34,396 nucleotides of DNA from a virus. The notes under the pieces are model-generated. The model ran no database searches and was not told the DNA's origin. It saw only the letters and a list, made by a program, of their open reading frames with translations. The DNA is taken from positions 1-34,396 of IMG/VR virus record IMGVR_UViG_3300042543_000811. One strand, given 5' to 3'. Below are positions 11,104-32,972 of the stretch, piece after piece (the first letter of the stretch is position 1; each line of letters begins with the position of its first letter). The position numbers and the translations under genes were made by a program.

Positions 11104-11173
11104 TTAGGCAATCCCCACCCAATTTCAATAGAACCAGAATGCCGAAGTTTTGGCTACCTGTGCCCAGGTAACT

Positions 11174-11254
11174 AGTCGATCGCTACCCAACCACCTTGGT
11201 GGCCAATCTTCCGCACAAGGCCTGCTTCCTGTGCGCGTCGCATGTGATAACGCA
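11174..11254 (-). pseudogene. Remnant 3' end of a serine recombinase gene
   Basis: About 82 bp match the 3' end of the recombinase gene at 12460-12542 at roughly 90% by eye. The encoded ending (RRAQEAGLVRKIGHQGGWVAID) differs from the intact gene's C-terminus at two positions. The rest of the gene is absent. It lies 76 bp from the left att core, where a recombinase gene would normally end, so it may mark the original position of an earlier related recombinase, or a repeat made when the PEP-CTERM cassette entered. Confidence 0.8.
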
Positions 11255-11314
11255 TTTTTCCAGAATGTCGGACATTTCCGGAGTGCGAAGAAACACTAAC
11301 TATTTTGACAATTA

Positions 11315-11351
11315 GGCCTCTTTTGTGGGTTGTTTGGCTTTTTTGGGGGGG
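11315..11351 (+). promoter_or_regulatory. Possible promoter with T6-G7 homopolymer tract
   Basis: A perfect -35-type hexamer TTGACA (11315-11320) is followed, at the spacing where a -10 box would lie, by a T6 then G7 run (11339-11351). No good TATAAT is present. Homopolymer runs here could change length and so vary transcription of the downstream PEP-CTERM gene. This rests on motif reading alone. Confidence 0.3.
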
Positions 11352-11395
11352 TAATTTACTGCAGATACAAGGATGCTCAGTTTCTACCAAGGAGG

Positions 11396-11434
11396 ATGAA
11401 TTCATCATCACTTAGTTTGAGATCAGTATTGTGA
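11396..11434 (+). CDS. Possible 12-codon leader ORF
   Basis: ATG at 11396 opens a 12-codon frame rich in Ser and Leu (MNSSSLSLRSVL). Its TGA stop overlaps the GTG start of the PEP-CTERM gene by three bases (GTGA). The best ribosome-binding site of the region, AAGGAGG (11389-11395), abuts this ATG, which is too close for normal use. An in-frame stop at 11413 prevents the main gene from starting nearer to it. This may be a coupling leader, or simply an arrangement made by past rearrangement. Confidence 0.25.
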   Translation: MNSSSLSLRSVL

Positions 11435-12414: not shown

Positions 12415-12457
12415 CTGAATCCTTCACGCGCATCATAGCGGCGTATCGTAGAGACCT

Positions 12458-14272: not shown

Positions 14273-14308
14273 GTTTTTTCGTCCTACTTTGGAATTGGTG
14301 TGGTTGGT

Positions 14309-14542
14309 CTAAAGCCCCTTGGTTTCCATCACGGCGTACTTGCCCCCACGAGGGGCCCGTGCGTAGGCTCCTTGCCAGTTGTCGATGGTTCGTATCAGCT
14401 CGCATTTGGCTGCGATCTCTTCGGGTGTCGGGTGGTACTCGTAGACGCCGTTTCGAGCGCGTTTCCATTCGCCTCGATCGATCCATTTGCCATCCGCTTC
14501 CCATTGGCGTACCTGGGGTGCGAGTTCGGTTTGTTCGTACAT
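14309..14542 (-). CDS. Small hypothetical protein
   Basis: This is a 77-residue protein starting MYEQTELAPQVRQWEADG, with AGGGG about eight bases before the ATG. The sequence is rich in Trp, Glu and Arg, with a YEYHPTPEEIAAKCELIR helix and a basic, glycine-rich tail. There is no membrane segment. A TTG at 14626 would extend it by 28 residues of poor quality. It lies 37 nt before the recombinase start on the same strand, so it is probably co-transcribed with it. A role in recombination directionality is possible from position only. Confidence 0.6.
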   Translation of the reverse strand: MYEQTELAPQVRQWEADGKWIDRGEWKRARNGVYEYHPTPEEIAAKCELIRTIDNWQGAYARAPRGGKYAVMETKGL

Positions 14543-14790
14543 GTCTGAAGCCCCTATGATTGGTGTTTGAAAACGCGGTCGGCTAACCCGCCGACGGGAA
14601 ACACACAGGAGCCAGGACATTTGCAATCAAGCAAGCCAAGCGGCTCGACCACTGGCTAAGAATTGCCAAGGTCGCCACAGAATCGCCCAGGAATAGCCCG
14701 TTTGCGGGCTTGGACGTTAGAGCCAGAAGCGACACAAGACCGCGCGTGCGGCCTCGTGTGCGTTGTGGTGGCGATTGGTGTGGTCGCGTT

Positions 14791-15186
14791 CTACTTGCGG
14801 CTGGCTAGCGCGAAGTGGCCCCGCTCGGTCTTGCGGAATCGGGCGTCTTTCCCTTTGGCGTTGATCTCCCGCAGGATCGAGGCGTAGAGCGTCGCGTCGG
14901 GCGTTGCCCCCTTGGGCGTCGACCAAAGACCCGCGACCTGCATCGCCTCGACCATCGCCTTGCAATTCATCGCGTCCTTCGATTTGCCAAGGACAATGAT
15001 CGCGGCTTCGATCTGGCTGATCTTCTTGGCCGGCGTTTCCGTTGGCTTGGACGGTTTCGAATCCTTGGCGTCGCGTTTGGCCACGGTTGCGTTCTTGGTC
15101 GTAGGCTTGGCCGTTTGTACCTTGGTCGCCTTCTTCGCGTTACGTGCGTTCGTGGTGGCCTTGGTGGTTTTGGTCTTGGTCGTCAT
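14791..15186 (-). CDS. H1-like tail plus HARE-HTH domain DNA-binding protein
   Basis: Residues 1-55 are almost entirely Lys, Thr, Ala and Asn, like a bacterial histone-H1 tail. Residues 58-131 form a HARE-HTH (HB1/ASXL) winged helix: KKISQIEAAIIVLGKSKDAM, MVEAMQVAGLWSTPKGATP, DATLYASILREI, and RFRKTERGHFAL. HARE-HTH domains occur in restriction enzymes, RNA polymerase delta and chromatin proteins, and are thought to sense modified DNA or to bind DNA generally. A homologue with the same HARE domain is encoded at 33537-34082 in the neighbouring element. DNA binding is likely; the specific role is unknown. Confidence 0.82.
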   Translation of the reverse strand: MTTKTKTTKATTNARNAKKATKVQTAKPTTKNATVAKRDAKDSKPSKPTETPAKKISQIEAAIIVLGKSKDAMNCKAMVEAMQVAGLWSTPKGATPDATLYASILREINAKGKDARFRKTERGHFALASRK

Positions 15187-15274
15187 CGTCTGGTCTCCCG
15201 TTGTTCGAATGGTATGGCTGCCATCATCAGGCCCGGCGAACCACCGCCGAGCGACGCCCGCAGGCGTTTCGGCG

Positions 15275-15538
15275 TTAGTTAGCGATCTCCCACGCGCGTT
15301 TGGTGCCGTAGCCTAGTTGTTGGCCTTCGACGATGTAGAGCACCGCATCGTCGTCTACGTCGCCGTCGTCGTCCGGGTCATCCTCGTCGGCCGCATCGTT
15401 GATCTCTTCGCCCGAGCACAGGCCGGTGATCGAATTTTCGAAGGGCCAGTTCTGTTGCGTCATCAGGCGTACCTCGGCATCGCCACCGATGAGGTCGCGG
15501 TATTCTTCCAGGCGTTCGATGAGTTGGTCGATGGTCAT
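15275..15538 (-). CDS. Small acidic protein, conserved accessory family
   Basis: This is an 87-residue protein starting MTIDQLIERLEEYRDLIGGDAEV. The N-terminal helix is followed by MTQQNWPFENSI, then an Asp/Glu-only stretch of about 20 residues, and the end YIVEGQQLGYGTKRAWEI. A homologue with more than 80% identity in both conserved blocks is encoded at 32694-32972 on the other strand. The acidic centre differs freely between the two, so the two ends carry the function. I know no function for this family. DNA mimicry is imaginable from the acidity, but unproven. Confidence 0.75.
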   Translation of the reverse strand: MTIDQLIERLEEYRDLIGGDAEVRLMTQQNWPFENSITGLCSGEEINDAADEDDPDDDGDVDDDAVLYIVEGQQLGYGTKRAWEIAN

Positions 15539-15568
15539 GTTCGTGGTCTCCGTTTTGGTTGGGGGTTA

Positions 15569-15790
15569 CTACTTCTCGGTTCCGGTCATGAAAGCGATCA
15601 CCGCTGAAAGGCGGCTGTTGATCTCGTTGAGGTCACCTACGTTGCCCCAATGGATCGGGTGTTCGTCGTTGCCCGGTGCGGGCAGGTCGAATAGCAATTC
15701 GCCGATTCGCGTTACTAGGTCTTGGGCCACTAGGTGTGCGTTCTCGTATGCTGCCTCGGCGTTGATCTTTGGTTTGGCGTTCTTGGCCAT
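15569..15790 (-). CDS. Small hypothetical protein
   Basis: The 73-residue product starts at ATG (MAKNAKPKINAEAAYENAHLVAQ) with GGAG about ten bases upstream. It is predicted mostly helical (LVTRIGELLFDL, LNEINSRLSAVIAFM). No family is recognised. It is the first gene of the - strand run leading to the recombinase and faces the excisionase-like gene across a 232-bp divergent promoter region. Confidence 0.62.
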   Translation of the reverse strand: MAKNAKPKINAEAAYENAHLVAQDLVTRIGELLFDLPAPGNDEHPIHWGNVGDLNEINSRLSAVIAFMTGTEK

Positions 15791-15968
15791 CGTCTCGTCT
15801 CCGTGTGTTGGGGTTTCGAATTCGTCGTTGCGACGACACACATGGAGCCATGGAAACCGGAACGCCTCAAGCGCTCTCTAACCACAATTCGGCTGGAATT
15901 TCCATGATTTCCGGTGTTGGGCCGGAATTAGCCGGGAATAGCGTCGTGCTGTTCAAACTGTGTAGGGT

Positions 15969-15979
15969 TAGTTAAACTA
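15969..15979. promoter_or_regulatory. Possible operator palindrome in divergent promoter region
   Basis: TAGTTAAACTA is a perfect palindrome around a central A, flanked by GG and CC, in the gap between the - strand run and the HTH gene. It would suit self-regulation by the HTH protein at 16023. This is a single short site, so the assignment is weak. Confidence 0.3.
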
Positions 15980-16022
15980 CCGGTCTTGCGAAACTCGCGC
16001 CCCAATTTTTGAGGCCAAGACC

Positions 16023-16226
16023 ATGACCAAATTGTCGGAATACATGCACACCGCAGAAGCGGCCGAGTATCTCGGCGTCCACCACAACACCGTTCGCAAA
16101 TGGGCAGCCCGTGGTGAGATCCCGATGCATCGGAACCCAGCCAATGGCTACCGACTGTTCAAACGAAGCGACTTGGACAAGCTGCTCAAGAAGGTGGCCG
16201 TTCCAGTAAAACCGAAATCATCGTAG
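16023..16226 (+). CDS. Excisionase-type MerR-like HTH protein
   Basis: The 67-residue protein is a single winged-helix HTH of the excisionase/MerR type: HTAEAAEYLGVHHNTVRKWAARG (about 9-31), then IPMHR and NGYRLFKRSDLDKLL (42-56). Proteins of this class act as recombination directionality factors or small repressors. Here it begins the + strand transcript that leads into the type I R-M operon (99-nt gap) and faces the recombinase run. It could direct excision by the serine recombinase, control restriction gene expression, or both. Confidence 0.85.
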   Translation: MTKLSEYMHTAEAAEYLGVHHNTVRKWAARGEIPMHRNPANGYRLFKRSDLDKLLKKVAVPVKPKSS

Positions 16227-16325
16227 AGCATCAGTAACCCAAGAATCCATGGCCAGGAAATCCAAGTCTTACGTGCTTTGCGACATCACCATCTCCAGCT
16301 TGCTTTCCGAAAGCCGCATAAGTCC

Positions 16326-18386
16326 ATGAACGAACCTGCCAAATTCAACTCCGTCGTTAGCTTCCTTTGGGCGATTGCCGACCTGCTCAACGGAGCTTTC
16401 AAGAAAAGCGAGTTCCAAAAGATCATTCTGCCCTTCACGGTGCTGCGTCGTCTCGATTACGCATTGGAGAAAACCAAGGCCAAGGTGCTGGAAACCGAGC
16501 GCAAGGAGAAGGAGAAGGGCCTGGAGAACCGCCACCGCCAGCTTTGCCGCGCTGCGGGTTACGCCTTTTACAATACCTCCAAGTTCAGCTACGAGAGCCT
16601 ACTCCACGACGACGCCAACGTCGCCCTGAATCTCCGCCAGTATGTCGCAGGCTTCTCGCCCAACGTCCGCGAGATCTTTGCCGCTTTCAACTTCGACGAC
16701 ACCATCCGCGACCTTAGCCGGGTCAATCTGCTGTACCTCCTCATGGAGCGATTCAATGAGAAGAGCAAGGTAGACCTGCGGCCCGAATCCATGTCCAACC
16801 ACGAGATGGGATACGTCTTCGAGCACCTGCTCCGCAAGTTCAACGAAGCCCTTAATGAAAACCCTGGTGAGCACTTTACGCCCCGCGACGGCATCCGCCT
16901 GATGGTCGATCTGGTGCTCATGCTCGACACGGCGTTGACGGGCAAGGAGGCCGTCACCCGCACTGTCAACGACTGCGGATGCGGCACCGGCGGCATCCTG
17001 TCCATCACCAAGGAACACATCCTTAAGATCAACCCTCAAGCCAAGGTATTCCTCTACGGGCAGGAGCTGAACCCATTCACTTGGGCCATCGCCCGCGCCG
17101 ACATGCTCATCCTTGAGCCCGAGGGAAAGGACGCAGAAAACATCAAGCTCGGCAGCACGCTCTCCAACGACCAGTTGTCGAATATGCGTTTTGACCTTCA
17201 GTTCATCAATCCGCCTTACGGCTACGAGTGGAGCAAGGACTTCGACGCGGTCACCGCCGAGGCAGACCTTGGGTTCGATGGCCGCTTTGGGGCCGGACTG
17301 CCGCGAAAGTCGGATGGGCAGATGCTCTTCCTCCAGCACCTCATCGCTCGGATGAACGACCCAGAGGAATCACAGAGCTACATCGGCATCATTCTGAACG
17401 GCTCGCCACTCTTCACCGGTGGCGCGGGTTCGGGTGAATCGGAAATCCGTCGCTGGATCCTGGAAAACGACTGGCTGGAGGCGATCGTCGCTCTGCCTCA
17501 GCAGCTCTTTTACAACACTGGCATCGGCACCTACATTTGGCTGCTCAGCAACCGCAAACCAGCTAAGCACCGTGGCAAGGTCCTGTTGGTGGACGCTTCG
17601 GGCGAGCAGTTTTGGTCCCCCATGTCCAAGAGCCTCGGTAATAAGCGCCGCGAGATCACCGAAACCCACAAGCAGGCCATCCTCAAGCTGGTCAAGGAAC
17701 GCAAGGAAGGCCCGCACCTGAAGATTTTCAATACTACGGACTTCGGTTACCGGGAGATCAGGGTGCTGCGCCCGCTGAAACTCCGCTTCGAGGTCAATGC
17801 CGAATCCCTCGCTCGGCTCGACACACAATCCGCCTTCAAAAATTTGGCGGTAAGCAAAAAGAAATCCCCCGCCGAGCAGAAGCAGGAGGAGAAAGAAGGC
17901 CGCGCCCTGCAAGCAGCCATCCGCGCCGCCCTGCAAACCCTCGCTGGCACCACCTTCATGCAGCGGGACAAGTTCACCGTTGCTTTGGAAGCCGCGCTCA
18001 AGAAGGCAGGGTTGAAACTCAAGGCCCCCGTGCTCAAAGCCATCATCGCTGGCATTGGCGAGCGGGATGACGCCGCCGAAATCTGCCGCGACAGCGACGG
18101 CAACCCCGAACCCGACACCGAACTGAACGACACCGAGAATGTGCCGCTCAAGGAAAACATCGAGACCTACTTCGCCCGCGAGGTCACACCGCATGTGCCG
18201 GACGCGTGGATCGACCCCACCTACTGCGATGCCAAGGACGGCGAGGTAGGCCGTGTTGGCTATGAAATCCCCTTCAACCGGCATTTCTACGTTTTCCAAC
18301 CGCCTCGCCCCCTAAGCGCAATCGATGCTGACCTGAAAGCCTCCACCGACCGTATCCTCAAAATGATCGGAGGGCTGACCCAATGA
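16326..18386 (+). CDS. hsdM: Type I restriction-modification, DNA methyltransferase subunit HsdM
   Basis: The 686-residue protein has a helical N-terminal HsdM_N domain (1-140) and an N6-adenine methyltransferase domain. Motif I is DCGCGTGG (216-223), the SAM site, and motif IV is NPPY (295-298), the catalytic site; HFTPRD precedes motif I as usual. The C-terminal 200 residues are a helical extension. With HsdS it would methylate adenine in a bipartite site. I chose ATG at 16326 (MNEPAKFNS), where the family homology begins; an upstream TTG at 16278 adds an unconvincing His-rich stretch. The stop overlaps the hsdS start by four bases. Codon use is more GC-rich than the neighbouring phage genes, in keeping with separate acquisition. 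Confidence 0.95.
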   Translation: MNEPAKFNSVVSFLWAIADLLNGAFKKSEFQKIILPFTVLRRLDYALEKTKAKVLETERKEKEKGLENRHRQLCRAAGYAFYNTSKFSYESLLHDDANVALNLRQYVAGFSPNVREIFAAFNFDDTIRDLSRVNLLYLLMERFNEKSKVDLRPESMSNHEMGYVFEHLLRKFNEALNENPGEHFTPRDGIRLMVDLVLMLDTALTGKEAVTRTVNDCGCGTGGILSITKEHILKINPQAKVFLYGQELNPFTWAIARADMLILEPEGKDAENIKLGSTLSNDQLSNMRFDLQFINPPYGYEWSKDFDAVTAEADLGFDGRFGAGLPRKSDGQMLFLQHLIARMNDPEESQSYIGIILNGSPLFTGGAGSGESEIRRWILENDWLEAIVALPQQLFYNTGIGTYIWLLSNRKPAKHRGKVLLVDASGEQFWSPMSKSLGNKRREITETHKQAILKLVKERKEGPHLKIFNTTDFGYREIRVLRPLKLRFEVNAESLARLDTQSAFKNLAVSKKKSPAEQKQEEKEGRALQAAIRAALQTLAGTTFMQRDKFTVALEAALKKAGLKLKAPVLKAIIAGIGERDDAAEICRDSDGNPEPDTELNDTENVPLKENIETYFAREVTPHVPDAWIDPTYCDAKDGEVGRVGYEIPFNRHFYVFQPPRPLSAIDADLKASTDRILKMIGGLTQ

Positions 18387-19717
18387 GCTTCCCGCGTTAT
18401 CCGAAATACAAGCAGAGTGGCGTGGAGTGGCTGGGGGAGGTGCCGGAACATTGGGGTTTACCGAAACTCAAAAGCGTCGCAACGTTTTCGGGCGGAGGGA
18501 CGCCAAGCCGAGATAATCCCGCGTATTGGAATGGGGACATCCCTTGGGTTTCGCCTAAAGACATGAAGTCTGAACGAATCGAGGGTGCAGAAGAATTGAT
18601 CACCGAGGAAGGACTGCGAAGTAGTGCGTCAAATTTGTTACCACCCGGGCGTGTTTTAATCGTTGTTCGCTCCGGCATTCTAAAACACACAATTCCAATC
18701 GCGATCACTGAGATCGCCGTTGCACTAAATCAGGACATGAAGGCGTTTTCCTTCGATCGCTCCAAGTGTGTGTCTCGATTCTTTCTCCGTTGGGTTCAAG
18801 GTCACAACGACCAACTTTTATTCGCTTGGGCAAAGCAAGGCGCCACTGTCGAAAGCATCGAGCATAGCTATCTAGCTCAGACTGTGATCCCGCTGCCACC
18901 CCTCCCCGAGCAAACGGCCATTGCGGAGTTTCTGGACCGGGAGACGGGGAGGATTGATGAGCTGGTGGCGGAGCAGCGGCGACTGATGGAACTGCTGAAA
19001 GAAAAACGCCAGGCCGTCATCTCCCACGCTGTCACCAAAGGCCTCAACCCCCACGCCCCCATGAAGCCTTCCGGCATCGAATGGCTCGGCGATGTGCCGG
19101 TGGGGTGGGCGGTGAAGCGCCTGAAACGCATCTCACCATTCATCGCTGTGGGGATCGTCGTGAACCCAAGCAACTGTATTGCGGAGGAAGGTCTGCCATT
19201 CATCTACGGAGGCGACATCCGCGAGGGAGTGATCGACTCAACCAATTCTCGGCGAATATCTAAAGAATCTAGCTTGGCGAATGCAAAGACACTTCTGCGC
19301 GCTGGAGACTTACTCACTGTCCGAGTAGGTGCGCCCGGTGTGACTGCTGTTGTCCCCCCTGAGTGCGACGGCGGAAATTGTGCATCCGTGATGCTGGTCA
19401 GGAAAGGCCCGTTCAACTCGGAGTGGTTGTGTTACGCGATGAATACTCCGGTGGTTCGATTTCAGGTTGATGTGGTCAAATACGGAGCAGCCCAAGAGCA
19501 GTTCAATATCAGCCACGCCGTCGATTTCTGGGTGCCCTGTCCGCCGCGTTCAGAACAAGATGAGATTGTGAAGTTCCTGACGCGAGAGACCGCCAAATTC
19601 GACACCCTCACCGCCGAAGCGCAACGCGCCATCGACCTACTGCAAGAACGCCGCACCGCGCTCATCTCCGCCGCCGTCACGGGGCAGATTGATGTGCGCA
19701 AACCACCGAAGAACTAG
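18383..19717 (+). CDS. hsdS: Type I restriction-modification specificity subunit HsdS
   Basis: The 444-residue protein shows the usual two-half organisation. Target-recognition domain 1 opens with GVEWLGEVPEHW and ends before the spacer helix (TAIAEFLDRETGRIDEL ... KRQAVISHAVTKG, about 177-218). Domain 2 opens with GIEWLGDVPVGW (about 228-239) and ends with the matching helix (EIVKFLTRETAKFDTL ... RRTALISAAVTGQ). Each recognition domain reads half of a split DNA target. The DNA coding for both recognition domains is visibly richer in A+T than the conserved parts, as expected where these domains are exchanged by recombination. It overlaps hsdM and is followed two bases later by hsdR. Confidence 0.95.
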   Translation: MSFPRYPKYKQSGVEWLGEVPEHWGLPKLKSVATFSGGGTPSRDNPAYWNGDIPWVSPKDMKSERIEGAEELITEEGLRSSASNLLPPGRVLIVVRSGILKHTIPIAITEIAVALNQDMKAFSFDRSKCVSRFFLRWVQGHNDQLLFAWAKQGATVESIEHSYLAQTVIPLPPLPEQTAIAEFLDRETGRIDELVAEQRRLMELLKEKRQAVISHAVTKGLNPHAPMKPSGIEWLGDVPVGWAVKRLKRISPFIAVGIVVNPSNCIAEEGLPFIYGGDIREGVIDSTNSRRISKESSLANAKTLLRAGDLLTVRVGAPGVTAVVPPECDGGNCASVMLVRKGPFNSEWLCYAMNTPVVRFQVDVVKYGAAQEQFNISHAVDFWVPCPPRSEQDEIVKFLTRETAKFDTLTAEAQRAIDLLQERRTALISAAVTGQIDVRKPPKN

Positions 19718-19719
19718 CC

Positions 19720-22692
19720 ATGGCCAAAATCACCTCCGAAGCTGCCTTTGAAGAACACGTCGAAGCCGTCCTGTTGAAGCAGCACGGTTTCTTCTCCGGC
19801 AAGCAGGACGACTACGACAAGAAGCTGTGTCTGCGGCCCGAGACGGTCATTTCCTTCATCCGCGCCACGCAAACCAAGAAGTGGGCCGACTACTGCGAGT
19901 TAGTCGGCGACAAAGATCAGGCCGCCCGCAACCTGCTCAAGCGCATCAAGGAAGTGGTGGACAAGGAAGGCACGCTGCACGCCCTGCGCAAAGGCTTCGA
20001 CGTGATCGGCGCTGGACATTTCGACTTGTGCTACTTCGAGCCGACCAATCCGGTGGCAGAGGAGAGTCGGCGTCTTTATCAGGAAAACCTCCTGCATGTG
20101 CAGCGCCAATGGAAGTTCTCCGAAGCCGACGAGAAGTCTCTCGACATGGGTATCTTCCTCAACGGCCTGCCGATCTTCACCATTGAGCTGAAGAACCAGA
20201 TCTCCGGCCAAAACATCGCTCATGCGATGAAGCAATACAAAGACACTCGCGACCCCAAGGAGCCACTGTTCCGCTTCAAGCGTTGCCTCGCACACTTTGC
20301 CGTAGACAACGACCTCGTCTATGTGACCACCGAGCTCGCCGGAGCGAAGACGCGGTTTCTCCCATTCAACCAAGGCCATGACGGCGGCGCAGGCAATCCG
20401 CCCTGCAAGGTGGGCTACGCGACGAGCTATTTGTGGCAGGATCTCTGGCAGAAGCCCCGAATCCTCGACCTGATCCAGAGATTCATCCGCGTGGTGGATG
20501 TGCTGGATGACAAGGGCAAGAAGACCGACAAGCAGCAACAAATCTTCCCTCGATTCCATCAGCTAACCTGCGTGCGCGAACTGTGTGCTGATGCCCAGAA
20601 GCACGGCGCGGGGAGGAATTACCTGAATCAACACAGCGCAGGCAGCGGCAAAACCAACGCGATCGCTTGGCTGGCGAACAGCCTCGCCACGCTGCATACG
20701 ACCAAAGGCGCACCCGTTTTCAGCTCGGTGGTCGTCATCTCTGACCGGCGCGTGATTGACCGCCAACTCCAACGCACGCTCAAGCAGGTGATCGAGACGC
20801 CGGGGATGTTGGTGAACATTGCTTCCGATGACGGCATGACCTCGGAGAATCTAAAGCAGGCGCTGGAAGACGGGAAACGCATCATCGTGACAACGCTGCA
20901 AAAGTTTGGTGTGATCATGGACCGCATGGGCGAGCTGCCAGGAGAACGCTTTGCGGTGATCGTGGACGAAGCGCACTCCTCACAGGCTGGAACAGCCGCC
21001 AAGGCGGTGCAAAAGGTCTTGTCCTACTCCTCAGAGGACGAGCAGAAGGAAGAAGAGGAAAAGACGGTGGAGGATCGGATTCTCGAAGAGCTCAAGACTC
21101 GCGGCCCGCAAAAGAACGTAAGCTATTTCGCCTACACGGCCACACCCAAGCCGGAGACACTGCAACAGTTTGGCACCAAACAGCCGGATGGCACCTTCAA
21201 ACCGTTCAGCCTCTACACCATGCGGCAGGCCATCGAGGAGAAGTTTATTCTCGATGTGCTCAAGAACTACACGACCTACGATCAATACTGGGCATTGCTC
21301 AAGAAAGTAAAGGACGATCCGGAGTTTGATGGAGCTAAGGCAAAGTCACTGCTCAAGCAGTTCGTTAGTCGCCACGAGCGAACCATCTCCAAGAAGGTGG
21401 CCATCATCGTGGAGCACTTCCACACTACGGTCGCGGACAAGCTCAGTGGCAAGGCCAAAGCGATGGTTGTCACTTCCTCCCGCCTGCATGCGGTCCGCTA
21501 CAAGCTGGCGGTGGATGCCTCTCTCAAGAAGCTGGGGCTTCCCTACAAAGCGTTGGTGGCCTTTACCGACGTGGTCAAGGACGCCAAGGACGGCAAAGAG
21601 TACACGGAGGCGAACATGAATGGTTTTCCCGAGGCGACGACGGGAGACCGCTTCGATGGAGATGAATACCGCTTCCTTATTGTTGCGAGTAAATTCCAGA
21701 CAGGTTTCGATCAGCCAAAATTGGTGGCCATGTATGTGGACAAAAAACTAAGCGGCGTGACTTGTGTGCAGACGCTGTCCCGCTTGAACCGCACGATGCC
21801 AGGGAAAGAAGAAACCTTCGTATTGGACTTCGAGAACAGCGCCGAAGACATCGAAAAAGGCTTCCAGCCGTTCTACGACCGCATCACCCTGTCCAAGGAA
21901 ACTGACGCCAACCAACTCTACAACATCCGTACCGATTTAGGGAAGTTCGCGATCCATGAGGATGTGGACTTAGAGGCGTTTTCCAAGGAGTGGTTCGGTG
22001 CCAAGCGAAGCGTTGAGAAGTTACAAGGTGTGGTAAATCCGGTGGCTAAGAAGTGGCAAGTGGAGGACGAGGAAGACCAAGTGGACTACAAGTCCAAGGC
22101 GAGAGATTTCGTAAAGTTGTATTCATTCCTTTCGCAACTGGTCCCGCTTCGGGATGTCGGACTGGAAAAGCTATTTGTATTCCTCCGATTCTTGCTACCA
22201 CTGCTTCAGGGCAAGAAGGGTGAGAACCCACTGGAGGTGCTGGCCATGGTGGACATGGAGAAACTGGCTATTCGGAAGAAGGAGAAGAAGGACATCGGTC
22301 TCAAACGAGGGGAGGTGCGCGAGGAACCGCTAAACTACGGTGGTGGCGCAATGTTGACGCAAGAGGAGCATGAAGCGCTCTCGATGATCATCGAAGATCT
22401 CAATACGCGGTTTAATACCTCATTCACCGAGGACGAGATCATGGTAATCAATCAGATTGAGAAGAAAATTAGCGAAGATGAGGCTCTCCAGCAACAGCTC
22501 AAAAATGGCTCGCGGCACGCCGTCGAAGCGACCTTCCGACAAGTAGCCGAAGATGCCTTCGAGGACTTGGTGGACGGCAACTATAAGTTCTACCAAAAGG
22601 TCAGTAATGACGAAGAAGTAGCAAAGGAGTTGTTTTCCCGGCTACTTGAGCGATTCCTTGAGGGGAGAAAAAAGCCACCGAAGAAGAAGTAA
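19720..22692 (+). CDS. hsdR: Type I restriction enzyme, HsdR motor/endonuclease subunit
   Basis: The 990-residue protein has an N-terminal PD-(D/E)XK nuclease with the ExK motif at FTIELKNQ (E156-K158) and the preceding acidic residue near 142. An SF2 translocase follows: Walker A AGSGKT at about 308-313, DEAH at about 414-417 (VDEAHSSQAG), FAYTATPKPETL, and the second RecA lobe with FQTGFDQPKL and QTLSRLNRTMPGK. The C-terminal part is a charged helical region for assembly with HsdM. Length and motifs are complete, so the R-M system appears functional. It is the last gene of the operon and ends before a hairpin at 22794. Confidence 0.95.
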   Translation: MAKITSEAAFEEHVEAVLLKQHGFFSGKQDDYDKKLCLRPETVISFIRATQTKKWADYCELVGDKDQAARNLLKRIKEVVDKEGTLHALRKGFDVIGAGHFDLCYFEPTNPVAEESRRLYQENLLHVQRQWKFSEADEKSLDMGIFLNGLPIFTIELKNQISGQNIAHAMKQYKDTRDPKEPLFRFKRCLAHFAVDNDLVYVTTELAGAKTRFLPFNQGHDGGAGNPPCKVGYATSYLWQDLWQKPRILDLIQRFIRVVDVLDDKGKKTDKQQQIFPRFHQLTCVRELCADAQKHGAGRNYLNQHSAGSGKTNAIAWLANSLATLHTTKGAPVFSSVVVISDRRVIDRQLQRTLKQVIETPGMLVNIASDDGMTSENLKQALEDGKRIIVTTLQKFGVIMDRMGELPGERFAVIVDEAHSSQAGTAAKAVQKVLSYSSEDEQKEEEEKTVEDRILEELKTRGPQKNVSYFAYTATPKPETLQQFGTKQPDGTFKPFSLYTMRQAIEEKFILDVLKNYTTYDQYWALLKKVKDDPEFDGAKAKSLLKQFVSRHERTISKKVAIIVEHFHTTVADKLSGKAKAMVVTSSRLHAVRYKLAVDASLKKLGLPYKALVAFTDVVKDAKDGKEYTEANMNGFPEATTGDRFDGDEYRFLIVASKFQTGFDQPKLVAMYVDKKLSGVTCVQTLSRLNRTMPGKEETFVLDFENSAEDIEKGFQPFYDRITLSKETDANQLYNIRTDLGKFAIHEDVDLEAFSKEWFGAKRSVEKLQGVVNPVAKKWQVEDEEDQVDYKSKARDFVKLYSFLSQLVPLRDVGLEKLFVFLRFLLPLLQGKKGENPLEVLAMVDMEKLAIRKKEKKDIGLKRGEVREEPLNYGGGAMLTQEEHEALSMIIEDLNTRFNTSFTEDEIMVINQIEKKISEDEALQQQLKNGSRHAVEATFRQVAEDAFEDLVDGNYKFYQKVSNDEEVAKELFSRLLERFLEGRKKPPKKK

Positions 22693-22793
22693 ATCTGGCA
22701 TTGCGTTGCGTGTTCTAAGACAAGGTCGGCGGTTTGTTCGTAGATTAATTTGGCGTTTCTGATCATCTTATTCGAGCGTTTGCAACCACCCTC

Positions 22794-22824
22794 GAGCCGT
22801 CGGGCTCCCCAGACCCGACGGCTC
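22794..22824. terminator. Hairpin between convergent genes
   Basis: An 11-bp perfect stem, GAGCCGTCGGG (22794-22804) with CCCGACGGCTC (22814-22824), has a 9-nt loop. It lies between the ends of hsdR and the coiled-coil gene and could stop transcription from both sides, though no T-run follows on either strand. Confidence 0.55.
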
Positions 22825-22871
22825 ACTACGATTCAACCAGATTGTCAAAGAACCAAGATCAACGGTAGCGA

Positions 22872-23579
22872 CTACGCGAGGCGCATTCGCTCTTCGATTT
22901 CCTCGCGTCGCTTCACAAGCTGCTCCTGCGATCGCGTGTTCTCCCTGATCTTTTGCCGGATCGATTCAGCTTGCTTCTGGAACGCGTTGGCCTGCTCCAA
23001 TCGATGATCCCGATCGGCTTGTTTGATCTCGGTTTCGGACTTGCGACGCTCTGTAAACACTCTTCCCTCCACGTAGGCCGCTTGCGATTCCAACTCTTGG
23101 TTGACCTTCGCTAGCGCCTCCATTTCGGATTCGACCTGTTCGTACTCCTCATCGAGCTCCGGGCTATCGCAGGTGTTGAATAACTCCTGGCGAGCCTGAG
23201 AGATCTCTTTCCGCACTTCGTTGATCTCTCGGAGCCGGCCGTAAAGCGGTGCGGTCGTGTCCTCGTACCGTTGCTCTGCTGCTTCCAGCTCCCGATCTGC
23301 TGCTGCAATCTTCTGTTGCACCAGCGCGGTCTCTTGATCGATCTTCGGGAGCGTGGCGACCAGTGCCTTGAGTGCCATCCGGGTCTGGTAGACTTCGACG
23401 TCTTGCTTTAAGTCGTCGAGCGACATGCCAAACTCAGAAAGCAGTCGTTCCACCTCGGCCAGATTGGGTTCCTTGCCCGTCGCGATCGCAGCTACCAGCT
23501 CTCGATAGCTGTTTTGCTTTTGTTGCGATCGCTGTTTTTGCAAACCGATCATCTTCTCGAAAAACTTTGAAACGCTCAT
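22872..23579 (-). CDS. Coiled-coil protein (partner of metallopeptidase-like protein)
   Basis: The 235-residue protein starts MSVSKFFEKMIGLQKQR. From about residue 75 to the end it is nearly all charged heptad-like helix (IAAADRELEAAEQRYED, EEYEQVESEMEALAKVNQELE, ESIRQKIRENTRSQEQLVKRREEIEERM), a long coiled coil. No catalytic motif or membrane segment is seen. Its ATG overlaps the stop of the upstream gene (ATGA), so the two are co-translated. It may be a scaffold or substrate for that protein. I recognise no named family, and long coiled coils make fold-based guesses unreliable. Confidence 0.75.
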   Translation of the reverse strand: MSVSKFFEKMIGLQKQRSQQKQNSYRELVAAIATGKEPNLAEVERLLSEFGMSLDDLKQDVEVYQTRMALKALVATLPKIDQETALVQQKIAAADRELEAAEQRYEDTTAPLYGRLREINEVRKEISQARQELFNTCDSPELDEEYEQVESEMEALAKVNQELESQAAYVEGRVFTERRKSETEIKQADRDHRLEQANAFQKQAESIRQKIRENTRSQEQLVKRREEIEERMRLA

Positions 23580-24331
23580 ACAGAAGGCTCCTTGGGAGTA
23601 GAGAAACGAGAAACGTACCTGTCCATGTCTGCAGACCATTGCTGCGTGAATTCAACATCGGGCGCGATCGCTAGAAGATCGCTAAGCGGGGTTTCGAGGT
23701 GGCGATGGGGTTCGTCCCCAAGGGCTTCCTCGTAAAAGCCGATGGGTGAAAGACCAAGGCGATGGGCTGCAAAGATGCCAGCGGGCTTGACCTCAAAGCC
23801 GGCCAGTGTCGCTCGGTGTGCTAAATGGATCACAAGCCGGATGTAGCTCAGGCCGTGGCCATAATAGAGTGGCAGGTCGGAGCGACCCGGTCGTTGCGAG
23901 ACGTCCGAAAGCACCATCGCATCGAATTGGAGCCGATTTGGATCATCGCAGTCCTCGTTGTCGTACAACTCTGGCCGATCCAGGATGTGGCCAAGTTCGT
24001 GTAGAGCTAGGCAGTGAATGAAGTATTCGAGGTCCTCGTCGGCATAGTCTTCAGCGATCGCGATGTCGTTGATTACCGCGCATGGGCCACGGCCACGCCA
24101 TGGTTTGATGTAGTGGCGATACAAAAGATCCGCATGCGGGTGGGTGAACCCATAGTGGTATTTGGTTCCGAGTCCGACCTGCAACTGCGATTGGGGGAGC
24201 AGGTAAAGCGGCGTCTGGCCCAGCTCCCGACTCGCGACGGTTCGGCACAGCCGTTCTGCCTTGGCGATAACCAGCCGAATGTAGCCCCCTGGCGTGCCCA
24301 CAGGCGCGTTTTGTTGGGTTTCTTGGGACAT
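23576..24331 (-). CDS. Zincin-like metallopeptidase-motif protein
   Basis: The 251-residue protein has HELGH at 111-115 in a helical setting (FIHCLALHELGHILDRPE), the HExxH zinc site of gluzincin/zincin peptidases; a later Glu or His as third ligand is not certain (D129-D130 follow closely). An upstream PCAVINDIAIAEDY strand and a downstream HGLSYIRLVIHLAHRA helix frame it. ATG at 24331 has AAAGGA upstream and is preferred to an earlier frame start. No signal peptide is present, so it acts in the cytoplasm. It overlaps the coiled-coil gene. A predicted protease with a coiled-coil partner could be a regulator or defence effector; the function is unproven. Confidence 0.75.
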   Translation of the reverse strand: MSQETQQNAPVGTPGGYIRLVIAKAERLCRTVASRELGQTPLYLLPQSQLQVGLGTKYHYGFTHPHADLLYRHYIKPWRGRGPCAVINDIAIAEDYADEDLEYFIHCLALHELGHILDRPELYDNEDCDDPNRLQFDAMVLSDVSQRPGRSDLPLYYGHGLSYIRLVIHLAHRATLAGFEVKPAGIFAAHRLGLSPIGFYEEALGDEPHRHLETPLSDLLAIAPDVEFTQQWSADMDRYVSRFSTPKEPSV

Positions 24332-24445
24332 TGGTAGATCCTTTCTAAAATCCCGACATTCAAAACAAACTGTGTCTAATACCGCGACCGTTCCCACGCC
24401 CCTCAGGAGCGGAGAAATGGCCGGAAGTACCTAATCGAGTCAGCC

Positions 24446-24646
24446 AGTGACGGATGACGGCAAGTGACGGCAAATTTCCTATGTGCGCCTATGGGATACG
24501 TAACATGAGCGCGAATACATGTGCGTGTGTTATTCATATTCGTGTTTGGAGTCTTAGAGCGATTAACAGGAATCTGACGTCATCTGCCGTCACCCGTCAC
24601 TTTTCGATACTGCCCCCAATATCGAAAGTGACCGCAGTGACGGCAG
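24446..24646. other. Putative replication origin with TGACGG iterons and cruciform
   Basis: Three direct TGACGG units (24446-24472, AGTGACGG / TGACGGCA / AGTGACGGCA) precede about 100 bp of A+T-richer sequence. A large imperfect hairpin then lies at 24584-24646: CTGCCGTCAC and GTCACTTTTCGATA pair with TATCGAAAGTGAC and GTGACGGCAG around a C-rich loop. The hairpin arms contain four more copies of the same unit, two per arm. A TGACGTCA palindrome lies at 24575-24582. The block sits immediately after the 3' end of the primase-helicase gene, where P4-type elements keep their origin repeats. The 330-bp gap (24332-24661) otherwise contains no gene. Confidence 0.6.
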
Positions 24647-24661
24647 AATCGGGATAAGCAT

Positions 24662-26968
24662 TTACGGAAACGATGATTCATCGTTACGAACTCCAAACTC
24701 GGGGTCGGACGACATTTGCAGGGAGGTCCTCAGGTCTAGCGCGATTCCGTTCCATATCTTGCCGTGCGAGGTGTGCTGTTTGCTGAATCCCATCTGGACG
24801 CCCCGGTGCTCCATCCACTGGGAGAATCGCTTCTGGGAGAGCGTGCGCTCGCCGGCGTCCGTGGCCCAGCGTTTGTATTCGGCGTAGAGGTCTTGGCTGG
24901 CGACTTTTGCACTAGCATCCAGCACGCAGCATTCGGCCAGGAAATCCTGCAGGACATCCATTTCGTCTCTATAACCTGCGGTTGCGATGCGTACCTCGGG
25001 TGGTTCGCCCATTCCGTAGCGTTGCCAATCCAGGCAGCCTCGAACGGCCCAATTACAGATGCCTGATAGTTCCTGCTGGAATTCCGTGAGGATCTGTTCC
25101 ATTGGTCGGCGTTCCTCTTCTGGGATGCGAATGAGGAACGGGACAAGTTTCAAGCGATCCCAGATCGCATCGTCGGTGCCTGAGACTCGAGGCTTGTAAT
25201 TGCTGCTCAAGTAAATTTTGAATCGCGGTGTGAATTCAAACCATTCTCCACGCATGAATCGAGCGACTATTCGATCGCCACCTGAGAGGTCTTTTACAAG
25301 CGCTTCGTCGAGTCGGTTGCCGTCGCCGGTCTCGCTGGCGGTCACCAGCCGAACTCCACGGAGGCGTGCGATGTCGTTTGGGATCGTGTCGCCTTTCTTG
25401 CTTAGCAGCGTTTGTGTTGGGGTTCGTGCTGTGTAGCCATCGCCAAGGAGCAACCGCATCCCCTCGAGGAATACAGTCTTTCCGTTCTTGCCAACACCAT
25501 GCAGAATAAACAAGCATCGCTCGGAGGTAGATCCCGTGATGGTGTAGCCGACAGCACGCTGGATGAATGTGACCAGGTCGCGATTGCCGTCCATGATTCG
25601 CTCGAGGAAGCTTTCCCAATGAGGGCAAGTCGCCTCGATGTCGTAGTCCAAGTTCAGACACCTTGTGATAAGGTCGGTCTGCCGATGTGGGAGCAGCAGT
25701 CCGGTTCGCAGGTCGATCGTCCCGTTGTGGCAATTCAGCAGCCACGAGTCTCGATCCAACTCGTCTGGCCCGATGGCGATCCCCGGCTCGCTGCGTGCAA
25801 GGGCTAGCATCGCCGTGATGCGAGATACCTGCTCTGATTGAATCGCATGCCGATGTAGCTCCTCGCGATCCTCGGAGTCGGCAACTTCGCTCACCTCGCT
25901 GTAGATACTCAACACGGTATCTTTGGCCAATCGTTCGGCCACAGCCTGATCGAAGGACCAATGCGTTCCATTCCAGGCGAGCCATTGGTTGAACTCATAG
26001 CAGTACCGAATGTTGGCTCCGTGTTTACGAACCAAGCGTTGTGCGTTGCCGAAGTCTGTGCAACCGAGGCCACGTAGTTGCTCGACGCCGGCCATGCGAT
26101 CGGCAGTGACCCTGGCTGGTTTTGCTCGCACTTCCTCTAGGCCGGCTCTGAAACCGCTTGAAAAGGTCGATTGCGACTTATCTGATTCCTCGGCTAGGAG
26201 CCCACATAGATCGGCCGCGCGGAGGCACAGGCTGCGTGCTTCGCTCTCTGGTATTCTCGCTTTGGCGCAGTGGTACGATGCGCTGTTGAGTGCATCGTTG
26301 CGATAGCCGGGCGCAACGAACCCTCGTAGGAAATCGAGCGTCGGCTTAGCTAGTCGCTTGCTGGGTGCCTTGGGCAACTGCCGGATGATGCAGCTATCGA
26401 TTGTCCCACATAGATACCTGTCGCCACCTCGCTCGTTGGGCTCGTTGGGTAGCCAGACTGCGGATCGCTTTTCGGTCTTAGGGAAGCACTCGATGTCCCC
26501 TCGACGATTGAATCCCCAGGACTTTGACCATTCGTTGAACGCTTCGATGGCCATGGGCTCGGCGAGTGCGTAGAAGCAGTGCAGCCCCTTGCCACTCTTG
26601 CTGGTAAATCGGATCGACGAAGCACCTAGAAATCGGTCAACGCGATCGGCTAGGTGTACGTTACCACCGTCCCCTTCGTGATCATCGAAATCAAAACAGA
26701 CTCGCACGACCCCACCATCGCGGTGTGGAACGAACGCCAAACGCGAACCGTTGGTGATTCGATAAGGCTTGCCGTCTTGAGTGATGGAATCGAAAGATTC
26801 AGAAGCCAGGGAGCCGGCTCGATAGGCACCGATCGCGCGCTCCGAGTGCTCCTGCCCATTGACCCAACCAGGACCGTCGCTCTTCCCTTTGGGATACATG
26901 ATGCAAACGGTGTTGGGTTCACAATAAGGCAGGAGCCACTCGAGTAAAGACAAACGATCAATGGACAT
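24662..26968 (-). CDS. P4-like primase-helicase (prim-pol / D5_N / SF3 ATPase)
   Basis: The 768-residue protein has an N-terminal primase-polymerase-like domain with RVCFDFDDH (D93 and D95) and TSKSGKGLHCFY (122-133), the acidic pair and basic motif of archaeo-eukaryotic primases. A D5_N-type region (NCHNGTIDLRTG, about 412-423) precedes an SF3 helicase with Walker A GVGKNGKT (491-498), a following sensor stretch (RLRGVRLVTASETG) and IYLSSNYKPRV. A winged C-terminal tail (LYAEYKRWATDAGE) completes it. This layout belongs to self-replicating satellites and plasmids (P4 alpha type). It lies next to an iteron-like region and is the likely initiator of the element's own replication. Confidence 0.9.
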   Translation of the reverse strand: MSIDRLSLLEWLLPYCEPNTVCIMYPKGKSDGPGWVNGQEHSERAIGAYRAGSLASESFDSITQDGKPYRITNGSRLAFVPHRDGGVVRVCFDFDDHEGDGGNVHLADRVDRFLGASSIRFTSKSGKGLHCFYALAEPMAIEAFNEWSKSWGFNRRGDIECFPKTEKRSAVWLPNEPNERGGDRYLCGTIDSCIIRQLPKAPSKRLAKPTLDFLRGFVAPGYRNDALNSASYHCAKARIPESEARSLCLRAADLCGLLAEESDKSQSTFSSGFRAGLEEVRAKPARVTADRMAGVEQLRGLGCTDFGNAQRLVRKHGANIRYCYEFNQWLAWNGTHWSFDQAVAERLAKDTVLSIYSEVSEVADSEDREELHRHAIQSEQVSRITAMLALARSEPGIAIGPDELDRDSWLLNCHNGTIDLRTGLLLPHRQTDLITRCLNLDYDIEATCPHWESFLERIMDGNRDLVTFIQRAVGYTITGSTSERCLFILHGVGKNGKTVFLEGMRLLLGDGYTARTPTQTLLSKKGDTIPNDIARLRGVRLVTASETGDGNRLDEALVKDLSGGDRIVARFMRGEWFEFTPRFKIYLSSNYKPRVSGTDDAIWDRLKLVPFLIRIPEEERRPMEQILTEFQQELSGICNWAVRGCLDWQRYGMGEPPEVRIATAGYRDEMDVLQDFLAECCVLDASAKVASQDLYAEYKRWATDAGERTLSQKRFSQWMEHRGVQMGFSKQHTSHGKIWNGIALDLRTSLQMSSDPEFGVRNDESSFP

Positions 26969-27019
26969 AAAATGCGTATCCTTGACAGGGGGCAGAGGAA
27001 ACGGGCCAACTGATGGCAG

Positions 27020-27409
27020 CTAGGTCTGAAGCGGAATCCAGCCGAAGGATTTGATTTCCTTGATTGCCTTCATCTCAGCCGCATGTCGCAGGTTCGAGGC
27101 GATTGCACCCTCGGATAGCTTGAACGATGCAGCAATTGCTTTTGCCGAGACGGGCTTTTTGCCGTCGTACATTTGCGATATGCGCTCGACGAGCATATCG
27201 ATCGTCGGCACTGGGAAATCCATTGGCGCGTCGCAGGTGATGTATTCAGTGACCATCGGTTCCTCCTTCGGAGTGGTTTGGGTTTGAGAACTAGCTAACG
27301 TTTCGGCATCGAGTTTTTCAGCGATGTCGAGATAGACCTCAGCCCAAGCTTCAGCAGCGCTGCTTGGGATGGAGAATGTTTCGTTGGGCAACTCGTCCAT
27401 TGGATTCAT
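27020..27409 (-). CDS. Possible winged-HTH regulatory protein
   Basis: The 129-residue product starts at ATG with GGAGG seven bases upstream, one of the best ribosome-binding sites in the window. The N-terminal half is acidic and flexible (PMDELPNETFSIPSS, TQTTPKEEP). The C-terminal half (PTIDMLVERISQMYDG, PVSAKAIAASFKLSEGAI, ASNLRHAAEMKAIKEIKSFGW) looks like a winged helix-turn-helix. It is the first gene inside the right att junction, 46 bp from the core, and lies 51 bp before the primase, so it probably starts the replication operon and may control it or help loading. Confidence 0.65.
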   Translation of the reverse strand: MNPMDELPNETFSIPSSAAEAWAEVYLDIAEKLDAETLASSQTQTTPKEEPMVTEYITCDAPMDFPVPTIDMLVERISQMYDGKKPVSAKAIAASFKLSEGAIASNLRHAAEMKAIKEIKSFGWIPLQT

Positions 27410-27411
27410 CC

Positions 27412-28377
27412 CTAGACCTCCGCTACTTGAAAATGGAGTGGGTTAGTATGCGCAGGCTGCTCAGCCTGAATTTGAGCCATTCGCCAACCACCTGGCATCG
27501 TGACCAATGCTCGCTTTTCGAGCTCGATCGGTTCGAATGGTTCTGCCGCATCGGCTTCACCGTTAGCAGGTGCATCGGTGTAGAGGATCCCTGCAAAGTC
27601 GGCCGCAGTCTCTGCTGCAGCAAGCACTGCTAAAGTGAACCTTCGCAATTGTGCAAACAGTGGCAGCGCTGGCATGATGTCAGGAATACCGCGAGTCTGT
27701 CCTGGTCGGTCAGCACGGAACCAATGGAGCACGGCCGAAGCGTCGATTCGATCGTAGTCGCTGCGAGCCGAGTAAAATCCGTCCCCGGGATGATTCTTTA
27801 GTACGTGGTACTCGATCGGATTGCCAGCCGCATCAAAGACGATCCCATCAACCGCACTTGTCGATAGCCGATCCAAATCGGGAGTTGTGACCTGGTCGGC
27901 TTCGACAAGTCGAAGGTCAAGCTGGACATCAGTGCTTAATCGTGGGTTGGTCGTAAAGATCGCGAAAGATTCGCCATCCGTGGCGCGAGCCATCCGCATC
28001 GTGCGTAGTTTTTCCGCGAGGTTGATCGATTTTGCCCACATCATGAAGGCATGTTCGATGCGTCTATTTGCGTCTGCATCGTTGGTGAGCATCTGCAACC
28101 GGGGGCCGGTACCGACGATGTCGTGGGCAAGGGTTAGCACAATCCCACGAGCATACGAGTTGTTGGCCGTTTCATACCGAGCACGGTTCCTAAGGATCCG
28201 GCGAACTTCGGCGCTATTGGATGCGTTGGGTGAGAGCCCATCGGCATTGGCCCAATGGCGACGATTATCATCGGTAGTCACCGCAGCGTCATAACGAGCG
28301 CGCACAACCCTCGCAACGCTTCGCGATTGCGAGAGAGTGTTTTTGGGAGACCACCAATTGGAAATCCAGGACAACAC
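27412..28377 (-). pseudogene. Phage portal protein, N-terminal fragment
   Basis: The 321-residue frame starts at GTG (28377) and matches the N-terminal two thirds of lambda-family portals: YETANNSYARGIVLTLAHDIVGTGPRLQ, the AIFTTNPRL strand, VQLDLRLVEADQV, IDASAVLHWFRADRPGQTRGIP and FTLAVLAAAETAADFAGILY. Full members are near 500 residues. Homology stops at RMAQIQAEQP; the final 13 residues (AHTNPLHFQVAEV) and the TAG stop come from the inserted element. The missing part is at 10558-11097. Joining the two at GGCTG restores the frame. If translated, the fragment lacks the clip and crown region and could even interfere with portal assembly. Confidence 0.9.
27455..27459. repeat. Recombination core, right junction (attR-like)
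   Basis: This is the second GGCTG copy, matching 11093-11097. Phage portal sequence lies to the right (encoding IQAE) and element sequence to the left. GTGGG at 27438-27442 is the inverted partner of CCCAC at 11114-11118, giving the reconstructed attP near-symmetrical arms. Confidence 0.8.
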
Positions 28378-31619: not shown

Positions 31620-32477
31620 ATGAACGCTAACGAGATCGCCTTCGGAATTGAATTCGAGACCACCCTCCCAAACAGCGACACCACACCGATCGGACCATAC
31701 CACCACGGATACCAAGTACCTTGGCTCCCCACCGGATGGAGAGCAGAACGCGACGCGAGCATCAAACCAGAAACCCCCAACCGCAAGGGATGCGAATTCG
31801 TAAGCCCCAAGCTCAAGGGATACGAAGGCCTCAAACAGATCGAAGACGCGATCGACAAGATCAACGAACACGGAGCGAGGGTCAATGCAACCTGCGGTTT
31901 GCACATAACGATCGAATGGAATGGGGATGCAGCCGCCTTGGCCAGATTGATTTCCTTGGTCGGCAACCACGAAAAAGCGATTTTCGCAAGCACCGGAACA
32001 CGCCGGCGAGAACAAACGGTCTACACCAAACGGATCAAACAATACGGGGACAAAGACGCCGCTAAGAACCGATGCGAAGCGGATCGCTACCACCTTTTGA
32101 ACCTCACCCACCTGGCAGCCGGTAAGAACCGGATCGAATTTCGGGCTTTCGCCGGAACGCTCAACAAGACCAAGGTGGTCGGATACCTGATGATGGTCCT
32201 GGGGTTGGCAGAGCTCGCGATGAATACCAAACGATGCGCCGATTGGGACTACGCCAAGAAAGACGGAACCAAGAGCTGCTGGGATCGACCCGGGGCTGGC
32301 CTGGGCGAGACAGAACTCAACCGCCTTTTCTACCGGCTCGGATGGACCAAGGGTTGGTACAAGGGAGAGCTTCGAAGCAAGATCTTCGGCGAGATCACCG
32401 GCGAGACCACCCGCGAATGGAAAACGATCAAGAACAAGCTTTTGGAGATGGCCAAGAAATACGACCAAGCGGCCTAA
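31620..32477 (+). CDS. Amidoligase-family (COOH-NH2 ligase) enzyme
   Basis: The 285-residue protein carries the putative amidoligase pattern (Amidoligase_2 type). IAFGIEFET (5-13) supplies acidic metal ligands, RDASI then GCEFVSPKL (about 46-66) follow, CGLHITIEW comes at about 95-103, and NRIEFRAFAGTL at about 175-186. These enzymes belong to the glutamate-cysteine ligase/glutamine synthetase fold and are predicted to form amide bonds on peptides, proteins or cell-wall components using ATP. ATG at 31620 is used; an upstream ATG at 31578 adds only Gln/Pro/Lys-rich sequence. It opens a + strand operon diverging from the phage packaging genes. No peptidase or amidotransferase partner is seen before the window ends. 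Confidence 0.8.
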   Translation: MNANEIAFGIEFETTLPNSDTTPIGPYHHGYQVPWLPTGWRAERDASIKPETPNRKGCEFVSPKLKGYEGLKQIEDAIDKINEHGARVNATCGLHITIEWNGDAAALARLISLVGNHEKAIFASTGTRRREQTVYTKRIKQYGDKDAAKNRCEADRYHLLNLTHLAAGKNRIEFRAFAGTLNKTKVVGYLMMVLGLAELAMNTKRCADWDYAKKDGTKSCWDRPGAGLGETELNRLFYRLGWTKGWYKGELRSKIFGEITGETTREWKTIKNKLLEMAKKYDQAA

Positions 32478-32492
32478 GGGCCTAGCGGGCAA

Positions 32493-32518
32493 GACCCTTG
32501 GGACAACCCCCAAGGGTC
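32493..32518 (+). terminator. Hairpin after amidoligase gene
   Basis: GACCCTTGGG (32493-32502) pairs perfectly with CCCAAGGGTC (32509-32518) around a 6-nt loop, 16 nt after the amidoligase stop. No T-run follows, so it may be a weak terminator, an attenuator or an RNA-stability hairpin. Confidence 0.5.
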
Positions 32519-32693
32519 GCTGGCCGGTCGCAACACGGCGCGATTGGTGCGTTGTGTTTGCAAACCAGCTCTCTGGCATGACTGGGTTATTTGATTTTCT
32601 TACCGGAACCGTATTGATGTCTTTGTGCTGGATGTACTGATGTCTAGCGACCTTTTGTTTTGAACCTATTTCAAAATCTATGGAGAACAGACC

Positions 32694-32972
32694 ATGACGA
32701 TCGACGAATTGATTGCGCGCCTCGAAGACTACCGCGATGAGATCGGTGGCGATGCCCAGGTCCGGTTGATGACCCAGCAGAACTGGCCCTTTGAGAACTC
32801 TATCTACGGATTGGCATCCGGGGCCGAGATCAACGACTACCAGGACGATGAGGACGGGGATGACGACGATGACAGCGACGATGCGGCCGAGGATTCGGTG
32901 CTCTTTATCGTCGAAGGCCAGCAGCTGGGATACGGAACCAAGCGGGCCTGGGACGTAGCTCGCGGCAATTAA
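32694..32972 (+). CDS. Small acidic protein, homologue of 15275-15538
   Basis: The 92-residue protein starts MTIDELIARLEDYRDEIGGDAQV behind a GGAG ribosome site. It has the same block plan as the gene at 15275-15538: MTQQNWPFENSI, a run of about 20 Asp/Glu residues, and the end FIVEGQQLGYGTKRAW. In the first 48 residues only about eight positions differ. The function is unknown. The pairing with a HARE-HTH gene downstream occurs in both elements, so the two small proteins may work together. Confidence 0.75.
   Translation: MTIDELIARLEDYRDEIGGDAQVRLMTQQNWPFENSIYGLASGAEINDYQDDEDGDDDDDSDDAAEDSVLFIVEGQQLGYGTKRAWDVARGN

Follow-up and report, generated by a model that had tools for sequence, protein, structure and literature searches.

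The question that this locus raises is what a dense block of short repeats does directly behind a primase-helicase gene in the analysed stretch of viral DNA (34,396 bp, here referred to as the window). We conclude that a small mobile element, lodged in a planctomycete phage within the gene for the portal protein, very probably starts its replication at these repeats. In the complete reading, to which we assign a probability of about 0.87, the block serves a 16.4-kb integrative element as its replication origin, the adjacent primase-helicase is its initiator, and the GTGACGG repeats are iterons at which binding, melting and the start of replication would take place.

The block (24447-24643) contains seven GTGACGG units, of which five are exact and two deviate at one position. 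They are arranged beside the primase-helicase gene as follows:

24447-24470, + strand: array A, direct 7-bp units starting at 24447, 24454 and 24464, namely exact GTGACGG (24447-24453, +), one-mismatch ATGACGG (24454-24460, +) and exact GTGACGG (24464-24470, +)
24471-24586, no strand: A+T-richer core, presumed melting region (from A+T content and alignment)
24587-24600, - strand: array B, two abutting exact GTGACGG units (24587-24593, -, and 24594-24600, -) in opposite orientation to array A
24628-24643, + strand: array C, one-mismatch GTGACCG (24628-24634, +) and exact GTGACGG (24637-24643, +), facing array B
24662-26968, - strand: primase-helicase of 768 aa, presumed initiator (Pfam D5_N and Pox_D5)

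These positions agree with the original prediction, made from the letters of the window, of seven TGACGG-type units within 200 bp, three of them direct and four in the arms of a hairpin. When up to one mismatch is allowed, the background density of the unit is 0.5 per 200 bp. With 6 copies in 200 bp, TGACGG forms the densest 6-mer cluster of the 34-kb window; any 6-mer reached at most 5 in 200 bp in 60 dinucleotide-preserving shuffles, and TGACGG itself at most 4 in 300 such shuffles. Only two further copies of GTGACGG are found elsewhere in the window. The DNA between the repeats had also been described as A+T-richer, and indeed the A+T content of 24471-24574 is 57.7% versus 44.7% for the element, placing it in the top 1.3% of same-size stretches, a moderate enrichment that falls to 48-52% A+T in some homologs. 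As predicted, the block abuts the 3′ end of the primase-helicase gene, with 19 bp between the stop (24662) and the nearest unit, and the gap is alike in the homologs.

Arrays B and C together form a hairpin at approximately 24583-24647 (-23.4 kcal/mol, z -8.4), so the predicted hairpin is real, but it measures 65 nt rather than 63. Its interpretation as a large cruciform, a functional feature in its own right, was rejected: the homologs keep the units and their orientation but not the stem, which makes the hairpin a by-product of the inverted iterons. Two further conserved boxes were observed on the - strand near the arrays. One lies in the core at about 24530-24567 (TTAATCGCTCTAAG..AAACACGAATATGAA or TTAATCGCTCTAAG..AAACATGAACATGAA) and is kept even where the iteron unit differs, while the other, at about 24360-24430 (TAGGTACTT..GCGGGAACAGCCGC..CAGTTTGTTT), is kept in relatives.

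The primase carries a C-terminal winged-helix domain at about residues 675-747, which is the presumed iteron binder, with residues 712-726 modelled as its recognition helix. Profile searches of the PDB matched the primase to 7ola (E 1.1e-4), which we take to be SaPI5 Rep (its chain is labelled 'DNA primase'), and to ASFV C962R. The full-length model was too poor (mean pLDDT 56), so only the C-terminal domain, modelled with a pLDDT of about 92, was used for the structure search; the N-terminal half had low model confidence and no Pfam match. The best match of the domain among solved structures was to RFX domains (Z 10.8), followed by the P4 origin-binding domain 1ka8 (Z 9.9, rmsd 2.6, 82 residues, 21% identity) and, ranked after these, the ASFV primase C962R (Z 9.1). 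SaPI5 Rep (7ola) was absent from the structural matches, though present in the sequence search, and this absence excludes nothing. Two hallmarks of P4 alpha-like proteins, a D5_N helicase and a C-terminal winged helix of the origin-binding fold, are thus found in this primase. The original label 'P4-like' therefore holds at the level of fold, whereas the closest layout is that of the SaPI/PICI and phage A2 origins, described below.

Close homologs of the primase (approximately 66-76% identity) were present in viral contigs and in planctomycete genomes, and repeats in the inverted layout were found directly 3′ of the primase in all 8 close full-length homologs as well as in L005 and L006. In the close homologs the inverted arrays, including a counterpart of array A, flank a core of about 100-130 bp. 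The unit is GTGAAGG throughout in L006 and L016, and largely GTGACGC in L005. Degraded copies lose primase and repeats jointly: in L011 and G617 the primase C-terminus is lost, the N-terminal part is kept and the arrays are absent, while in L007 the primase is frameshifted and the right array is missing. Two observations had been named beforehand as counting against an origin, namely a wide spread of the repeat over a genome and primase-bearing homologs without repeats. Both were looked for and neither was found, since 4 of the 5 closely paired GTGACGG sites in the 9.0 Mb genome of the relative G748 fall within this block, and no close homolog with an intact primase lacked the repeats, which supports the candidate origin first proposed.

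For distant homologs, we scanned 392 Planctomycetota genomes and used the best matches, requiring an exact 6-mer in inverted arrays that flank a core of at least 35 bp, at p ≤ 0.05. This array test was passed by 16 of the 29 distant homologs (the other 13 failed this exact-repeat test) versus 1 of 29 coding controls taken from coding stretches of the same primases. The distant units were wholly different (TTGGAAC, ACCGAAG, GGACCGG, CGTACCC, TTGGACA and others), and 9-10 bp usually separated one copy from the next. Because the inverted arrays are present in distant homologs with entirely different units, the inverted layout is likely an old property of D5-type primases of this sort, and the unit the part that evolves.

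We also compared the unit with the protein. The helicase part of L006 is nearest to L015 (87%), which uses GTGACGG, whereas its winged helix is 88% identical to that of L016, with which it shares the unit GTGAAGG, and only 56% to that of L015. The changes common to L006 and L016 (SQWMEHRG to A/V-QGLE-Q/R-RG) are located in the modelled recognition helix. In a partial Mantel-type analysis corrected for the helicase, unit similarity followed the winged helix in the close family (partial r 0.46, p 0.009), a covariation that rests on few independent unit changes. The distant homologs together with the window gave weak support (r 0.18, p 0.024), and the correlation was not significant for all 25 homologs together (0.11, p 0.086), a set in which the helicase correlates with the unit at least as well as the winged helix does. 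Within the close family, these comparisons show the iteron unit changing together with the recognition helix of the primase.

The original prediction spoke of an inserted element, which was borne out, and its location could be refined to a precise place within a phage portal gene. The element covers 16,362 bp (11098-27459) and, together with the interrupted gene, comprises the following features in addition to the block and the primase:

10558-11100, - strand: portal gene, C-terminal portion
11093-11097, - strand: right junction, CAGCC core before the C-terminal part of the portal
11431-12414, + strand: FGE-sulfatase-domain gene, cargo (domain match)
12458-14272, - strand: large serine recombinase, presumed integrase (domain matches to Resolvase, Recombinase and Zn-ribbon)
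16023-16226, + strand: HTH_17/MerR-like protein of 67 aa, excisionase/regulator-like
16278-22692, + strand: type I restriction-modification cargo (hsdM, hsdS, hsdR)
22872-23639, - strand: g255, conserved gene of the module, present in homologous loci
23576-24397, - strand: g273, conserved gene 3′ of the origin, with a zinc-peptidase-like HELGH motif (translation; tblastn in homologous loci)
27020-27409, - strand: p129, small conserved gene 5′ of the primase, present in homologous loci
27412-28377, - strand: portal gene, N-terminal portion, residues to about 307
27455-27459, - strand: left junction, CAGCC core ending the N-terminal part of the portal

No phage structural or lytic genes were recognised between 11098 and 27459, and g273 had no Pfam or PHROG match. 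The serine recombinase showed 66% identity to the copy in contig L019 and 45% to that in L020. Among 14 phage records with an intact portal, 12 had no such primase and 2 had a distant one; thus, the primase and the origin belong to the element and not to the phage. As for cargo in relatives, a DNA methylase was found in L019. Cas3g/Cas8g-like genes were noticed beside the primase/iteron module in L144 (8556-12652, genome G001), possibly a CRISPR type I-G cargo.

Joining the two portal parts at their common 5-bp CAGCC core restored an open, in-frame portal with 98.1% identity over 486 residues to the intact portal of L022. This site was uninterrupted in 78 of 80 related portals from viral contigs; one of the other two stops at the contig end, and the last comes from a second metagenome that contains the element of the window itself together with its left junction (8.2 kb at 99.9% identity). 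Altogether, three complete elements, including that of the window, and two partial ones were identified in the portal gene, at two sites. L019 has about 15.8 kb between its portal parts, inserted at the same codon as in the window, while the 9.9 kb element of L020 (934-10857) has an 8-bp CCGTTCAA core (codons NMPF) about 70 bp downstream of the window site. L014 and L016 have one junction each at this second site (CCGTTCAA). Related modules were also found off portals, in the G748 chromosome at 7.296 Mb and in L011, which shares the element end but has a different flank; the portal is therefore a frequent but not an exclusive place, a frequency to be read with the fact that a viral-contig collection favours phage contexts. 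No circular junction of the element was found in viral contigs. The repeat block was also considered as an attachment site and rejected, the junctions being at CAGCC about 3 kb and 13 kb away. The arrangement is another one, or a degenerate one, in L008 and L004, two copies in one genome (MAG TH-plancto1), where the primase and iterons come after the N-terminal part of a terminase and, in L008, are followed by the C-terminal part of a capsid gene.

The insertion place in the portal gene is unusual, and a literature search of partial coverage yielded no description of an element that integrates in a portal gene; the origin type, on the other hand, is already known. In Lactobacillus phage A2 (NC_004112), an annotated rep_origin (32208-32717) begins at the 3′ end of the gene for a primase homologous to that of the window (38% identity over residues 305-722), and it shows the same inverted arrays around A+T-rich DNA, with four forward units and three reverse ones; however, its unit is ACGGGAG and it is part of a complete phage. 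Phages AcaML1 and phi105 also passed the array test. With P4 alpha, the primase-helicase of the window shares a C-terminal winged helix of the origin-binding fold (1ka8, Z 9.9). P4 requires both ori and crr, which are separate sites, whereas all repeats of the window are in one block.

The origins of SaPI/PICI elements are described as directly adjoining the 3′ end of the initiator gene and as containing an A+T-rich region with a set of iterons on each side (PMC6092414; see also PMC7581432). In the window, the last unit is likewise 19 bp from the primase stop, and arrays A and B are inverted around the 57.7% A+T core. The initiator, a presumed one in the window, is in both cases a helicase of the D5/Primase_Cterm kind; the iterons are recognised by its C-terminal domain in PICIs (PMC6092414, PMC7581432) and presumably also in the window. 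The elements are also alike in having no structural or lytic genes and in size, being 16.4 kb in the window, about 15.8 kb in L019 and 9.9 kb in L020 as compared with about 12-15 kb for PICIs. The gene set includes a serine recombinase, which sets the element apart from SaPI/PICI, and the primase, and the only possible regulator or excisionase is the 67-aa HTH_17 protein. The host group, Planctomycetota, differs as well. PICI att sites are described as being on the bacterial chromosome and never occupied by prophages (PMC6092414, PMC7581432), whereas that of the window element is inside a phage portal gene, and no phage induction or packaging is known for this element; we therefore do not classify it as a PICI. 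In SCCmec, direct repeats downstream of the gene for the D5-family helicase Cch2, a putative origin, are bound by the C-terminal domain of this helicase, and inverted repeats are dispensable for the binding (PMC7581432), which fits the view that the hairpin of the window is not the functional part. Cch2 differs in having a separate CCPol-MP primase and a 5-nt AAGTG unit (PMC7581432). Taken with these counterparts, the window origin would be of the SaPI/PICI, P4 and A2 type.

Iteron-like repeats often double as operators, and the block could on this general ground be a site at which a regulator of the element controls transcription of g273 and g255 or of the primase, with the origin elsewhere. 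The HTH protein encoded at 16023-16226 and the conserved box TAGGTACTT..GGGAAC, which sits between array A and g273, would suit such a role. Nevertheless, we regard it as very unlikely, as the unit follows the winged helix of the primase, the inverted layout is kept beside distant primases, and the annotated origin of phage A2 matches in both layout and position. It is still harder to read the block, situated between the primase and g273, as a structured RNA or a transcription terminator in which the hairpin would be the functional unit: the strength of the predicted hairpin (z -8.4) is what speaks for it, but no T-run follows the large hairpin, no Rfam match came near the gathering score, homologs either pair other sub-arrays with other loops or pair across the whole core, and conservation tracks the iteron units and not the stem between them. 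We consider this extremely improbable.

Another explanation accepts an origin but takes it as decayed, once functional and now silent in a defective prophage. Since the portal gene is broken and some relatives (L007, L011 and G617) are degraded, this deserves slightly more weight, yet it too is unlikely, for the primase of the window is free of stops, the arrays are complete, and the element recurs with its left junction, almost unchanged, in the second metagenome.

We thus return to a functional origin, for which the following course is proposed by analogy with PICI, P4, A2 and Cch2. The C-terminal winged-helix domains of the primase would bind the GTGACGG iterons, and the inverted arrays would load two helicase hexamers, one on each side of the core, in facing orientation. 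The A+T-richer core would then melt, the primase-helicase itself unwinding and priming. Replication would most likely follow excision of the element by the serine recombinase, probably as a circle, and excision would restore the portal reading frame. Perhaps these are self-replicating elements that have specialised in parking inside planctomycete phage portal genes, where they would disable the packaging motor until precise excision while carrying restriction or other defence cargo, as a phage parasite or a phage trap living in the phage genome; we put this forward tentatively, at somewhat under even odds.

The locus provides a concrete, testable pair of candidate origin and initiator in Planctomycetota. 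It also points to an inverted-iteron origin, with a 7-bp unit that varies, which even distant homologs keep directly behind their D5-type primase genes, and natural pairs of unit and winged helix could for this reason reveal the recognition code of the latter. The portal-gene habit, if real, would be an unusual control of one mobile element by another. Apart from the origin, similar stretches in opposite orientation were observed at 15264-15551, inside the element, and at about 32682-32953, outside it, both being regions of strong A/T skew.
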